A stretch of 33,058 bases of DNA. It comes from Thermodesulfobacteriota bacterium (lineage in GTDB: Bacteria; Desulfobacterota; Desulfobacteria; Desulfobacterales; Desulfosudaceae). Shown in pieces: positions 3,427-26,323 of this stretch; position 1 is the stretch's first letter; each line of letters opens with the position of its first letter. The DNA is taken from positions 12,931 through 45,988 of the forward strand of contig JBFMDX010000028.1 of assembly GCA_040753795.1 (NCBI GenBank). The letters run 5' to 3'. The position numbers were made by a program, and so were the translations under genes. The notes below the pieces were generated by a model that had not been told where the DNA came from, ran no database searches, and saw nothing but the letters and a program-made list of their open reading frames with translations.

Positions 3427-4389
3427 TCAACCCTTCCCCGTCGCCCCGCTCCAGACGACGATTTCCGGGTTTACCCCTGACTTCCGGGCAACCGTAGCCA
3501 GGCGTTCCATGGTTTCGGCCGGGAGACAGGAGCAGCCCTCGAATGCCCAGCGGGTTCCGAGGCGCCGGTACTTGTCGGCGCACAGGTTGTTGAAGGCGCA
3601 AAGCTCCCAGCGGGTCACGGCTTTACCGCCGACGTCGGCAATATGGCGGCCGATGGCGGCGATATTGTCATCCTGATCCGTGGCGCCGGGGATGACCGGC
3701 GTGCGCACCCAGATCCCGGCCGGATAGAGATGACCGGCCGTGTAACCGGTGACATAAGCGAAGTTCTCCAGGATGCGGCGGTTGTCGCTGCCGGTCAGGT
3801 CCCTGTGGATCACGGGATCGGCGATTTTGAGGTCAAACAGCACCAGGGTCGCGTGGGGCAGCATCAGGTTCAGGGCTTCCCGGTTGCACAGGCCGCAGGT
3901 GTCCACGGCCGTATGGATGCCGTGTTCCCGCAATCGCGAAAGAAACGATGCCACGGCCGGGGCCTGCAGGGCGGGTTCCCCGCCGGACACGGTCACGCCG
4001 CCGGCCGATGTTTCGTAATAGGTCCGGTCCTTGAGCACCTCGTTGACCAGATCGTCGACCATCCATTGGGAACCGATCTGCTCCAGTGCCGTGGACGGGC
4101 ACTCTTTCGCGCACAGGCCGCAGCGGGTGCATTTATCCCGGTCGATGATCATGCCTTCAGCGGTCAGGTCAAGGGCCTTTTCCGGACAGAGGTCGACGCA
4201 GGTCCGGCACCCGATGCAGCGCACGGCAAACCAGACGATTTCCACCAGGGGGGAAATGCTTTCCGGGTTGTGGCACCAGCGGCAGCGTAAGGGGCAACCT
4301 TTAAGAAAAACGGTGGTGCGGATGCCGGGACCGTCTTCCGTGGAAAAGCGCTGGACCTCGAAAACCGTCAGGACATCAGAGCCGCTCAT
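3427..4389 (-). CDS. Glycyl radical enzyme activase (radical SAM)
   Basis: 320 aa. It installs the glycyl radical on its partner enzyme using S-adenosylmethionine and a [4Fe-4S] cluster. The radical-SAM cysteines are C32, C36 and C39 in GCPLRCRWC, preceded by the family signature [17 protein letters not shown]. Two inserted ferredoxin-type clusters follow (C58/C61/C64/C68 and C87/C90/C93/C97), as in activases of the non-PFL glycyl radical enzymes. TVSGGEP is the SAM-binding glycine motif. The start overlaps the end of the glycyl radical enzyme gene by 14 nt, so the two are probably translationally coupled and certainly belong together. The closest functional classes are activases of choline lyase, glycerol dehydratase and arylacetate decarboxylase type enzymes. 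The exact partner chemistry cannot be told from the activase. Confidence 0.95.
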
Positions 4390-6892
4390 GGCTGACCCGC
4401 TCGATGATTTCGTTCTGCAGTTCTCGTCCCACGGCGGTAAAATAGGCGTTGTAACCGGTGACCCGGACCAGCAGGTGCCGGTAGTCTTCCGGGTGCTTCT
4501 GGGCGTCCCGGAGCATGTCCGGGTCGACCATGTTGATCTGCAGGGCGGTGCCGCCGTTGCGGGCGTAAGCCTTGAGAAAAGCCTTGAATTTTTCCCGATG
4601 GGCCGGGTCCCGGACCATGGCCGGCTGAAAGGAGATGGTATGGCTGGCGCCGTTGGGCAGCATGTTGACGTATCCGTCCAGGTCGCCCTGGCCGTCCGGG
4701 CTCATGCCGCCCAGGGCCTTGCCCACGGAGTTGGTATTGGCCGTGGGGCCGTTGATGTCGGCGCCATTGGAGGGGCAGATGGCGTTGGAGAGAAATTGCC
4801 CCTTGCGGCGGCCGTCGGGGCTGGCCGCCATGACAAACCCGTCTCCGGCCCAGTAGTTCCAGCTGAGCATGCCCGGCCGGAATTGCCGGCCGGTGACGCG
4901 GGTCTTGTGTTTCCAGGTTTCGTCGCACCAGAGCGTCATCACCTCCCGGGCCATGGCGTCGGCCCGGTCGTCGTCCCGGCCGTACTTGGGCGCCCGGTTT
5001 TTCGCCAGGGTCTGCAGCATTTCATACCCTTCCCAGTTGGCCCGCAGGGCCCGGATCAGTTCGGCCATGTCGCATTTTCTGGCTTCAAATACCAGGTATT
5101 GAATGGCCAGCAGCGAGTCGACGGTGGTGGCGAAGGTGACCGCTTCCAGGGTGACAAAGCTGATCTGGGCGCCGCCCCGGGTGATATCCAGGCCCTTTTC
5201 CGCGCAGCCTTTGACCAGGCAGGAGAGGTAGGGCGTGGGGAAGTATTTTGCCCGGATGGATTCGCTGGTTTCATACAGGTCCACGCAGCGCTTGATAATG
5301 GCGGCGGTCTGAATTTTGTAGGCGTTCCAGAATTCCTCCCAGGCGGTAAACCGGGTGGCGTCGCCGGTGGCCGGGCCGTCCTGGCCGATTTTTTCGGTTT
5401 TGCCGGTGATGGGATCGGTAAAGGAGAGCAGGTCCCGGCCGTTGTTTAAGGCCAGCTCCACGGCCTTGAGCAGGTTCAGGTTGCAGTCCACCGTGCCGGA
5501 ACGGTCGTTGCCGACCATGGTGTTTTCCAGGCACCCCACCGGCGCGTATTCATGGACATTGGTCTCATTGATTAAATGTCCCAGTCCGGCCAGGCGCGCC
5601 TCGCGCATCATGCCGGCCATGGAGCGCTCGTCGAAGTTGAGCAGGAACGGGGCCCCCTGGCTGGCGCCGACCATGTCCACCACCTTGTCCAGCAGGGCGT
5701 CGGGAGAGTGCCGGTGCAGGCGGATGTTGGGCTTGGGCTCCAGGATAGGGGACATCTCGTCGATGACTTCCAGCATGGCAAAGGTCAGGTCGTTGGTCAT
5801 GTCCCGACCGTCCTTGCCCAGGCCGGACAGGGTGACGAGCTGGCCGAATCCCGAGGTGATGCCCTGGTAGCCGTTGCGGATCATGGCGTCATAGGCGGTG
5901 TTGCAGTGGATCCAGAAGCATTTTAGTATTTCCTTGCCGAACTCCCGGGACATGCCTGTTTTCAGAGAATTTTCCCAGAAGGGCAGCAGGTACTGGTCGA
6001 CACGGCCGAAGGAGACGCCGGGACCGGGATAGTTTTCGTCGCTCATGACCAGCATGTGGTTGATCCACAGGGCCTGGACCGCTTCCCAGAAGGTGACCGG
6101 CGGATACCAGGGGACCCGGTCCAGGTTCCGGGCCATCTGGTCCAGTTCCCGGCGCCGGACCGGATCGGTTTCCCAGTCCGACAGGCCGCGACAAATCCGG
6201 GCATATTGCGCCGCCAGCTCCCGCGGCATGGAGGCCGCCGTGATCATGGCCCGCAACTGCCGGCCCCGCGGCCCCTGTCGGTCCTCCTCGGACAGGGCGG
6301 TGTAGAGCGCGCCCAGTTCGCCGGCAATGCCCTGCCAGCCGATCTGCAGGGCCCGTTCGTGGCCGGGGACCAGGTGGCCGGAGGTGGCGCCGGCATTGCC
6401 GTAGCCGTGGTCATGAAACCATTTCATGGCCGAACGGGCCCCTTTTTTGCCGTTGATCAGCCGGTTGTATTCGGCCTGCTCGTCTTTCGTCAGGCACAGG
6501 GAGGTCTGGAGGTTGAACCGTCCGCCGGCGATCAGGTCGCCGGGCAGGACCTCTTTGGGCAGATGGTTGACCATGACTTCCTTGACAAACCAGGCCCGCC
6601 TTTCCGGCAGGCTCTGGTCCCAGAAATTATCGGGCAGGGGTACGTTGCGCGCGGCCTGGCGGAAGGAACCGCCCATGGTGCGGATCAGGGGATAGGTCTC
6701 GGGCACGATATAAAACGTCATTTCATTAAATTGCGTGTCCCAGGCCGTGCCGGTGGACCAGGCGGTGAACTCGTTGTTCCAGGCCCGGTCCGTGCCTTTA
6801 AAATAATAATCCCGCAGCCAGGTGATGCGGTCGGAAAGCGCGCCGGGCGCCTTCAGTGATTGTTCGAATTTTTTCGCGGTGGCGGATGACAT
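4376..6892 (-). CDS. Glycyl radical enzyme (pyruvate formate-lyase superfamily), substrate unknown
   Basis: 838 aa, the usual length. The radical site is RVTGYNAYF near the C-terminus (Gly about 813). The thiyl-radical cysteine lies in APVGCLENT (Cys about 454), with a glutamate two residues later (about 456). The CxE arrangement is shared with the eliminase/lyase branch (glycerol and diol dehydratases, choline lyase, 4-hydroxyphenylacetate decarboxylase) rather than the CC pair of pyruvate formate-lyase. A longer frame reaches 6988, but TGGAGGAA just before the ATG at 6892 fixes the start there, 13 nt after the crotonase stop. The enzyme is oxygen-sensitive, so it implies an anaerobic host. 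No small accessory subunits are encoded nearby. The family is certain; the substrate is not, and residues lining the pocket would have to be compared with characterised members. Confidence 0.93.
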
Positions 6893-6905
6893 CGGTTCCT
6901 CCAGT

Positions 6906-7718
6906 TTAAATATCCGGAAACTTCGCCGCTCTCTTTTCCAGAAAAGCGGTGATGCCGTGAACGCACTCTCCGGATTCGACCAGGGCAACGGCCTCGTCCA
7001 GTTCCATGGCCAGGGATTGATCCAGGGTCATGTTCCGGCTCTGCCGGATGACGGCCAGGGCATGACGCACGGCCCGGGGACCATTGGCGGATATGGCTTG
7101 GGCCAGGGCCAGGGCGTCCTCCAGGCAGCGGCCTTTTTCGCTGACCCGGTTGGCGAAGCCGAGCTGCAGGGCTTCGTCGGCGGAGACTTTCCGGGCGGTA
7201 AGGACCAGGTCCGCGGCCCGGGCCGCTCCCACCAGCCGGGACAGGGCGGCGCCGCCGCCCCAGTCGGGCATGAGCCCCAGGCGGACTTCGGAAAAACAGA
7301 CGACGGCGTCCCGGTCCATGACCCGCAGGTCGCAGCGGCTGGACAGTTCGGCCCCACCGCCGTAGGCCAGGCCGTTGATGGCCGCGATGATGGGGACGGG
7401 CAGGGCGACAAAGGCGTCGACCGCGTCCCGTACCACCTTCATGCCGTCGACCAGCCCCTGGTGGTCATTTTTTCCCATGGCCTCATGCATTGTCATGACC
7501 AGGGGGTTGTCGGGGTTGACGTCAAAACCGGCGCTGAAAGCCTTGTCCCCGGCACCGGTGATGACGACCACCCGCGGCATATTCGCCCGCAGCTCGCCGG
7601 TCACCCGGGCCAGCTCCGCGAACATGAAAGCGTTAAACGCGTTCCGTCGTGACGGCCGGTTGATGGTGATGATGCCGATTTTTTCTCTTATTTCCAGATG
7701 GATGCCTTCCGCTGACAT
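6906..7718 (-). CDS. Enoyl-CoA hydratase/isomerase (crotonase family)
   Basis: 270 aa. The fold signatures are clear: TINRPSRRNAFN at the N-terminus, the oxyanion-hole loops AFSAGFDVN (60-68) and GLAYGGGAELSSRCDL (117-131), and the two acidic catalytic positions E124 and E144 (FSEVRLG). With both glutamates present it could hydrate an enoyl-CoA, but crotonases also isomerise, cleave rings or decarboxylate. GAGGAG before the ATG supports the start. It is the first gene of the operon leading into the glycyl radical enzyme (13-nt gap) and its activase. This pairing suggests the radical enzyme's product is handled as, or formed from, a CoA thioester (inference). Confidence 0.9.
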   Translation of the reverse strand: MSAEGIHLEIREKIGIITINRPSRRNAFNAFMFAELARVTGELRANMPRVVVITGAGDKAFSAGFDVNPDNPLVMTMHEAMGKNDHQGLVDGMKVVRDAVDAFVALPVPIIAAINGLAYGGGAELSSRCDLRVMDRDAVVCFSEVRLGLMPDWGGGAALSRLVGAARAADLVLTARKVSADEALQLGFANRVSEKGRCLEDALALAQAISANGPRAVRHALAVIRQSRNMTLDQSLAMELDEAVALVESGECVHGITAFLEKRAAKFPDI

Positions 7719-24250: not shown

Positions 24251-26323
24251 TTACCTGGGAAATGCCGCCGGCACGCCGCCGTCCACCGGCAGGGCGGCGC
24301 CCGTTGTGGGAGTCAGGTTGGCGGCGAAAAAGACCACGGCATTGCCCACATGCTGGGCCGACACCGAAACCTTGAGCAGGTTCCGCTGCCGGTAATATTC
24401 TTTCAGCCCTTCGGGATCGAGTCCGCGCGCTTTCATCCGATCCGGCCCGATCAACGCCCACAGCTTGGAGGGAACGTTCTCGTCCCCGAAAACCGCATCC
24501 GGATTGATCATGTTCACCCGGACACCGAGTTCGGCCAGTTCCAGGGCCGCGATCTTCGCCATCTGATGGGCGCCTGCTTTGGAAGCGCTGTAGGCTCCGA
24601 AGGAAGCGCCGGGATCGAATACATTTTTGGTGCTGATCAGAACGATATTACCGCCGGTTTTCTGCCGGCGAAACACGGGAACCACCGCCTTGATAACATT
24701 AACTGTCCCCGTGAGGTTTACACTCATAACATTTTGAAATACTTTTATATCCAAATCTTCAATCTTTGCCACATGGGCGATTCCGGCATTGGGCACCAGG
24801 ATATCCAGTCCGCCGAATTTCAGACAAACTTTTTCCAGACCCGACTGAACGCTTTTTTCATCAGTAACGTCAAAATTGATGCCGGCGACCCGGTCGGCAT
24901 CATAACGATGGGCCAGAATCTGTCTCACGATCTCCAGCCCGGTTTCGTCAATATCGGAAACCGCCACCGTGGCCCCGGCCGCCAGCAGGCGGTCGGCGAT
25001 ACCGAAACCGATGGCGCCGGCCGCGCCGGTCACCAGGGCGATTTTCCCTGCCAGCAGGGCAGGAGGGGCACCGCGGAGTTTTTTCAGTTGAAGGGGCCAG
25101 TACTCCATGTCAAAAACATGGGCCTCGTCAATGGGCACGCATGACGCCAGGCCCGCCTGAAAACGGGTCAGGAGAGTATGCGCGGCGATATCCGCGGCGA
25201 CGCGGGCCGCCTTCCTTGTTTTTCCCAGGGCGAACAGGCCGACTCCGGCCACAAGAAATATCCGCGGGGTCGGGTCCAGCATGACCAGGTCGGAATCGTT
25301 CCGGAAAGCGTTGAAACCGGTTTCATAGGCCGCCCGCCAGGTCGCTACCCGCTCCCTGATCACCGCGGAAAGGTCTTCGTCCCCGGCCGGGACATTATCG
25401 ATATAAATATACCGGTTCCCCGTACGGATGACATGATCCGGTGTCAGCACACCCGCTTCGCATATGCTTGCCGCCATGGAACTCATGGATACGTTGATGA
25501 TGTCGTCCTCTTCGCGGACATCCACCAGCAGGGTACACGGGTTGCCCGCGGCATCGGAACCGGCGCAGGCCCCGCGGATCATCTGGGCGATTCTGGCCGG
25601 CGCGCCGTCGTCCCGGATAGCGGCCGACCAGTTGCTGTCGCCGGTCGGCTGGCCGTTCAGCCAGGCTTCGGCCCGGGCGATGAAATCCATCATGCGGCGG
25701 AAGGGGGTTTCCGCGTCTTCTCCAAAGGTGAAGATGCCGTGATTCAGCACCACGATGGCTTCCGCGTCCGCCTGTTTTTCCCAGGCGGTTACCGCGGATA
25801 AGGCCAGGGGAAGCCCGGATTTTTCATACGGGATGACGCATACCGCCGGGCCCAGGACTTGCCTGACAGCGGCATCGGCATCGGCGCGGCTGGTCAGGGC
25901 GAGAATGGCGTCGGCGTGGGTGTGATCAATGAATTTATGGGGCAGGAACACATGCAGCAGGGCCTCCACCGAGGGGTCCGGCGCGTCTGCCCGCAGCTTA
26001 TGGATCTTGAGCTGGTTGTCCATCTCCTCGTCGGTTATTCCGGTCAATTGCCTCAACCGGCGCAGGGGGGCCAGATCCAGGGACGTAAAACCGGCGGCAT
26101 CGATGGCGGCCAGATCCGCGCCGCTGCCTTTGACATAAATTACCGTCCGGTCTTCTCCAAAAAGGTCTTTTTCAACCGTTTTCATAGAGGTGTTGCCGCC
26201 GCCGTGCAGGACCCAGGCGGGGTTTTGCCCGATAAGACGGGAAGTATAGATCCGTTCGGCCATGTCCCGGGAAAGGCCGGGGCGGGAGATCATGATTTCC
26301 GCTATTTTTGATTCTTCAAGCAT
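24251..26323 (-). CDS. Bifunctional class II aldolase / short-chain dehydrogenase
   Basis: 690 aa. Residues 1-400 form a class II aldolase/adducin domain with GGGNTSMK (41-48), the zinc-binding HTH pair H134/H136 and NHG (194-196). Residues about 422-690 form an SDR domain with NAD motif TGAAGAIG (432-439), NAG (512-514), a catalytic serine in VLISTKN and YSASK (578-582). The fusion is known from bifunctional rhamnulose-1-phosphate aldolase/lactaldehyde dehydrogenases of L-rhamnose and related deoxy-sugar use. There the aldolase yields dihydroxyacetone phosphate plus lactaldehyde and the SDR oxidises the aldehyde. No rhamnose isomerase or kinase is nearby, so the sugar is open. It is the first gene of the three-gene run. 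Confidence 0.9.
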   Translation of the reverse strand: MLEESKIAEIMISRPGLSRDMAERIYTSRLIGQNPAWVLHGGGNTSMKTVEKDLFGEDRTVIYVKGSGADLAAIDAAGFTSLDLAPLRRLRQLTGITDEEMDNQLKIHKLRADAPDPSVEALLHVFLPHKFIDHTHADAILALTSRADADAAVRQVLGPAVCVIPYEKSGLPLALSAVTAWEKQADAEAIVVLNHGIFTFGEDAETPFRRMMDFIARAEAWLNGQPTGDSNWSAAIRDDGAPARIAQMIRGACAGSDAAGNPCTLLVDVREEDDIINVSMSSMAASICEAGVLTPDHVIRTGNRYIYIDNVPAGDEDLSAVIRERVATWRAAYETGFNAFRNDSDLVMLDPTPRIFLVAGVGLFALGKTRKAARVAADIAAHTLLTRFQAGLASCVPIDEAHVFDMEYWPLQLKKLRGAPPALLAGKIALVTGAAGAIGFGIADRLLAAGATVAVSDIDETGLEIVRQILAHRYDADRVAGINFDVTDEKSVQSGLEKVCLKFGGLDILVPNAGIAHVAKIEDLDIKVFQNVMSVNLTGTVNVIKAVVPVFRRQKTGGNIVLISTKNVFDPGASFGAYSASKAGAHQMAKIAALELAELGVRVNMINPDAVFGDENVPSKLWALIGPDRMKARGLDPEGLKEYYRQRNLLKVSVSAQHVGNAVVFFAANLTPTTGAALPVDGGVPAAFPR

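Follow-up and report, generated by a model that had tools for sequence, protein, structure and literature searches.

A glycyl radical enzyme (GRE) of unassigned subfamily is encoded in the stretch of Thermodesulfobacteriota DNA analysed here (33,058 nucleotides of contig JBFMDX010000028.1, termed the window). Across its family the usual companions of this enzyme are an activase and a split-barrel flavoprotein, not the crotonase whose gene precedes it in this genome. The enzyme is best read as an uncharacterised GRE that is probably an eliminase and has a dedicated flavoprotein as its working partner, and the gene set points to an undescribed anaerobic reaction. We place a probability of roughly 45% on the proposal as a whole: GRE, activase and flavoprotein would be a conserved set of anaerobic function, in which the GRE eliminates and the flavoprotein acts on the substrate or product.

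The genes concerned lie on the minus strand of the window. A crotonase-family gene (7718–6906, 270 aa; Pfam ECH_1, 160 bits) is separated by 13 nt from the GRE gene (6892–4376, 838 aa counted from ATG; a longer open reading frame (ORF) starting with TTG at 6988 is also listed), which overlaps the activase gene (4389–3427, 320 aa) by 14 nt. After a further 282 nt comes the gene for a tandem split-barrel PNPOx/flavin mononucleotide (FMN)-binding-like protein, the flavoprotein (3144–2302, 280 aa). A sequence-only reading of the window had reported the first three genes in this order and with these spacings, and the coordinates agree; it ended one gene short, omitting the conserved flavoprotein gene. 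The three genes and their motifs at this place are a real observation, far beyond chance. The C-x-E active site and intact glycyl radical site that it described were likewise located, as GCLE (residues 453–456, 5525..5536; with C454 as the thiyl cysteine and E456 as the acid/base glutamate) and RVTGY (residues 810–814, 4451..4465; radical site G813). Its two-cluster activase also stands: this GRE-activating radical S-adenosylmethionine (SAM) enzyme has the SAM-cluster motif and two additional, ferredoxin-like four-cysteine motifs, matches Pfam Radical_SAM (51 bits) and Fer4 modules, and scores 300 bits against a cut-off of 174 with the GRE activase model TIGR02494.

Membership of the GRE superfamily is clear from Pfam PF02901 (PFL-like, 399 bits) and PF01228 (Gly_radical, 77 bits). 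The earlier view that the enzyme has no assigned substrate was upheld, as it reached no NCBIfam equivalog cut-off. Scores were 354 bits for the trans-4-hydroxyproline dehydratase (HypD) model NF043068 (cut-off 1100), 297 for the choline trimethylamine-lyase (CutC) model TIGR04394 (1050), 345 and 345 for the sulfopropanediol GRE models HpsG/HpfG (NF048011/NF048009; 1000) and 265 for NF007437 (1109). The subfamily model TIGR01774 gave 390 bits against 678. Comparison of the predicted GRE structure (predicted local distance difference test (pLDDT) 84.6) with solved GREs returned a top 37 rows of Z 29–36 and 22–30% identity, with none singled out.

A seven-sequence alignment was used to scan genome contigs for relatives, and of the 230 obtained the best 80 (68–75% identity) were retained. 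With the window they make up the 81 main loci, of which L095 and L098 are one metagenome-assembled genome (MAG). Among these best 80, MAGs of sulfate-reducer and syntroph lineages are frequent carriers of the family: the hosts are Desulfobacteraceae, other Deltaproteobacteria, Syntrophaceae including Smithella and several MAGs labelled Spirochaetes, and the labels Bacteroidetes, Myxococcales or Poribacteria apply to a few. At E ≤ 1e-120, 39 of 394 genomes sampled from the phylum gave a GRE match, 31 of them close (65–100% identity) and eight from a sister clade (45–51%), whose GREs are 43–48% identical to that of the window by blastp. In a tree of ORFs picked by GRE motifs, 15 of the 81 main rows and the eight sister rows share one branch with 100/100 support, separate both from the rows for CutC, HypD and HpsG and from further GREs found in similar genomes. 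L004, L006 and L073_15877 were left out of this tree, and L124 is absent from it as none of its ORFs had the GRE motifs.

Neighbouring genes were counted with profiles on six-frame translations of the 81 loci, taking as denominators the loci with room. Gene-caller counts fell below these because overlapping ORFs hid genes, for example the flavoprotein gene of G104. An activase start is found no more than 600 nt downstream of the GRE in 70/72 loci, and the flavoprotein no more than 2.5 kb downstream in 62/62. Within 600 nt upstream, a GntR/FCD (FadR-type) regulator occurs in 45/66 loci and a crotonase in one of 66, the window itself. The crotonase gene here is a stray that occupies the usual regulator position, and was rejected as a core member by this count and by the placement of its orthologues apart from the GRE. 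Such orthologues (E ≤ 1e-60, 52–73% identity) occur in 6 of 57 related genomes, of which four lack this GRE and two carry it on another contig. The sole other window-gene match in five of these regions was a 29% match to the gene at 24251–26323. The sequence-only reading had taken crotonase, GRE and activase as the core operon of a possible route feeding coenzyme A (CoA)-ester metabolism, with an RND exporter as a possible partner, and had proposed conservation of the crotonase neighbourhood as a check. In this genome the 13-nt gap on one strand speaks for it, and the crotonase gene is probably cotranscribed with the GRE gene. No RND exporter, however, appears in the neighbour clusters that occur in at least 4 of the 81 loci, and it was discarded as a partner. 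A CoA-ester route is contradicted as a family trait and comparative support for it is absent; it could hold solely in this lineage, and we give it very little credence.

Across whole genomes the flavoprotein follows the GRE closely. In a set of 58 (the window's own genome and 57 relatives), the GRE is present in nine and the flavoprotein in seven, all within those nine; in the two others the GRE lies at a contig end or on a 3.1-kb contig. Among the 394 phylum genomes, those with a close GRE have the flavoprotein (E ≤ 1e-30) in 30 of 31 cases, and the 363 others in one. The only close-GRE genome without it is G293, whose activase lies 40 nt from a contig end, and the exception among the others is G085, a carrier of a sister GRE. 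At this threshold, which missed seven of the eight sister proteins, the flavoprotein is absent from all 355 genomes that have neither GRE, and weaker homologues may exist in GRE-free genomes. With a sister flavoprotein as query, a homologue was detected in 8/8 sister-GRE genomes, following the activase on the GRE contig in seven and standing on another contig in G085. The window's genome (G000) has seven GRE genes (from eight matches, one gene having been matched in two pieces) and one flavoprotein at E ≤ 1e-30, so the protein is no general GRE accessory there.

The predicted flavoprotein model (pLDDT 88.5) consists of two halves with similar strand order, which also match one another by hhalign (probability 77, E 2e-5). 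It is read as a probable tandem split barrel since the halves share strand order and match each other. The best fold match of the N-terminal barrel is HupZ (Z 15.4, root-mean-square deviation 3.0, 120 residues), and the Desulfovibrio FMN-binding protein gives Z 12.3–13.0. These PNPOx-like split-barrel proteins have the same N-terminal barrel fold, whereas the protein described here has two barrel-like halves per chain, is 12–18% identical to both and bears C-terminal motifs that are invariant in its family (V257-Y-N and Y269-P). Sister flavoproteins are 23–28% identical to it by blastp and match the main profile with a probability of 99.9. Another PNPOx-annotated protein in a GRE operon is LssP, a putative PNPOx-like protein of the limonenylsuccinate synthase operon, reported in 2025 with no function assigned (PMC12583861). 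The likeness drawn here is one of annotation, and the GRE of that system is an X-succinate synthase.

The catalytic residues C454, E456, H173 and G813 are kept in the main (81 rows) and sister (8) clades and in at least 85% of 15 other GREs. A further 78 positions are invariant across both clades and rare in other GREs, which for some of them have an alignment gap. These include E286, Y288, K387, N389, N457, the D463, R464, S465, G466, V468 and D469 of the NDRSGTVD segment after the Cys loop (residues 462–469, 5486..5509), N471, the W678, N679, Y680 and W681 of SWNYW (residues 677–681, 4850..4864), S750 and H751. The sharing of family-specific residues and of the same partner suggests that main and sister clades may catalyse one reaction.

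By these alignments the window GRE departs, in the residues of its pocket region, from the characterised GREs in the comparison. The positions aligned to what we take to be the diol-binding His/Ser/Asp residues of the glycerol/propanediol dehydratase 1r8w hold P291, G292 and V468. Residues given as essential or important in HypD include D278, D339, S334, Y450 and T645 (PMC7077986), and the alignments show none of these kept in the window GRE: T645 aligns with W678 and Y450 with N471, and depending on the alignment method D278 falls on G290 or P291, D339 on G348 or F349 and S334 on Q343 or G344. The NCBIfam hits included no model for isethionate lyase IslA, whose sulfonate-binding residues include R189, Q193 and R678 (PMC8473560). 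G674 would stand at the place of R678 if this is the R of VRYVPF in 5ymr, and the N-terminal residues are insecurely aligned.

The mechanism that we propose begins with the activase, which would install a radical on G813. This would be transferred to C454 to form a thiyl, which would abstract a hydrogen from the substrate; both steps are proposed because they are established GRE chemistry and the residues are kept. E456 and H173 would then assist a 1,2-elimination, with loss of water or another leaving group. The flavoprotein would act on the substrate or product of the GRE, most likely as a reductase of an unsaturated, carbonyl or imine product; this last step is a guess prompted by co-occurrence. 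It is also conceivable, if doubtful, that the two form a radical-flavin pair in which the unsaturated or radical-derived product of the eliminase passes directly to the flavoprotein, so that together they would remove a leaving group in a net reductive or isomerising manner that neither could achieve alone; this would be an old anaerobic route, main and sister clades being about 45–50% identical.

A GRE that decarboxylates or rearranges its substrate, with C-x-E kept by happenstance, would account for the Trp-rich LSWNYW segment and for N457 (usually Pro), both of which differ from the aligned reference eliminases. Against this, H173, C454 and E456, which correspond to HypD H160, C434 and E436, are retained, and the arylacetate decarboxylase models NF033715 and NF033718 score 171 and 222 bits where 1150 and 1100 are required. 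Eliminases make up most of the best structural rows, but rows close to them cover a wide range of functions, so this carries little weight. We consider a non-eliminase unlikely.

Of the 43 loci whose regulator is preceded by at least 200 nt of sequence, 38 have a TGGT-ACCA palindrome (TGGTNNNACCA operator) in the interval from 200 nt before to 60 nt after the called regulator start. Mononucleotide shuffling (100 rounds) gave a mean of 3.0 loci and a maximum of 8, and among 20 loci lacking the regulator one has the palindrome. A single regulator, that of L074, was scanned; it has GntR and FCD domains over cut-off (FCD 72 bits) and reaches no equivalog cut-off, its best score being GlcC at 91 versus 301 bits. 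It has the domains and the TGGT-ACCA palindrome in common with FadR-family FCD regulators (GlcC, PdhR, LldR, NanR) and differs from them in these sub-threshold scores. Known FCD-fold members sense small carboxylates, and by analogy a FadR-type regulator with its operator upstream suggests a small carboxylate as the signal here. Beside the operon of the window the regulator is absent, its closest homologue in G000 is only 32% identical, and the exact operator was not found in the window; control therefore differs in this genome.

Several points weigh against an eliminase working with a substrate- or product-directed flavoprotein. C-x-E occurs in decarboxylating GREs too, so elimination is not proven by the motif. 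Flavin binding is a prediction, and the flavoprotein scores 27.9 bits with PNPOx_N (PF01243), just below the gathering cut-off of 28.1 (two sister flavoproteins give 40.8 and 21.6). The pocket positions come from sequence alignment, with a shift of about one residue between methods and no ligand-bound model. The regulator is missing in 21/66 loci and the palindrome in 5/43. Related genomes are non-independent samples, and the neighbourhood and co-occurrence results are for that reason given as counts, with no probability attached. Three cases also leave the partner of the flavoprotein ambiguous. L041 and L058 are without an adjacent activase and have the flavoprotein directly after the GRE, and in G041 an activase-flavoprotein pair lies on a different contig from the GRE.

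The G041 arrangement, and the usual adjacency of the two genes elsewhere, would fit a flavoprotein that is the dedicated electron donor to the activase, leaving the GRE alone to perform the metabolic step. The fold likeness to the small Desulfovibrio FMN-binding protein favours this as well. The other GREs of G000 nevertheless do without such a partner, and the flavoprotein adjoins the GRE with no intervening activase in L041 and L058, which makes a donor role improbable in our judgement. The best fold match is HupZ, which we take to be a haem-related protein, so the fold leaves room for readings other than a redox enzyme, and the flavin-type protein might instead serve the GRE as a sensor, a chaperone or a protection factor against oxygen, and not as a pathway enzyme. 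This is the less probable of the two; the remaining GREs of G000 again manage without it, and we rate it as quite unlikely.

The preferred reading, a GRE eliminase with a dedicated flavoprotein, can be set beside the known GRE eliminases HypD, CutC, glycerol/propanediol dehydratase and IslA/HpsG. The whole GRE fold is common to both (VIA Z 30.6–35.6 over 679–730 residues), as are H173/C454/E456/G813 and an activase with two extra cluster motifs. The window GRE differs in its 26–30% identity, its scores below the equivalog cut-offs where a model exists, its own clade against the CutC, HypD and HpsG rows, its pocket residues and its flavoprotein partner. To our knowledge, no GRE eliminase with a flavoprotein partner has been described. 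A search of the open-access literature returned nothing on this GRE family together with a flavoprotein of the split-barrel kind. As an enzyme class GREs are known; this subfamily and its flavoprotein partner are new as far as that literature shows. Solving the function of earlier GRE subfamilies (choline, isethionate, hydroxyproline) brought an anaerobic pathway to light in each case. Here a GRE of unassigned substrate becomes a testable three-protein system, with the regulator and operator as handles. Smithella propionate dismutation was considered as the GRE function and set aside, as the literature search gave no link. A sulfatase gene, on the same strand and within two genes of the set in L024, L036, L038 and L062, was dropped as a functional clue, four loci being too few.

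A second GRE gene follows the flavoprotein gene in L081, L082, L092, L093 and L098; in L093 the call is a 1004-aa ORF whose frame differs from that of the flavoprotein gene it overlaps. This downstream GRE is about 30% identical to the window GRE and was taken as a paralogue, not a member of the set. The GRE of L006 is without the C-x-E glutamate. In L016 (G001:C71) GRE and activase share one open frame, and the GRE of that MAG is also split over two frames; a sequence error is likely and a fusion possible. A 1123-aa ORF (G000:C7:161343-163403 (-), locus L004:1087-4455) is by Pfam a fusion of a radical SAM activase domain and a GRE complete with glycyl radical domain, and immediately upstream of it stand a TGGTACTACCA site and a GntR/FCD-type homologue (32% identity). 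In the window, 117- and 45-bp tandem repeats occupy 1842–2303, downstream of the flavoprotein gene, and tandem repeats are also present in the stretch ahead of that gene.

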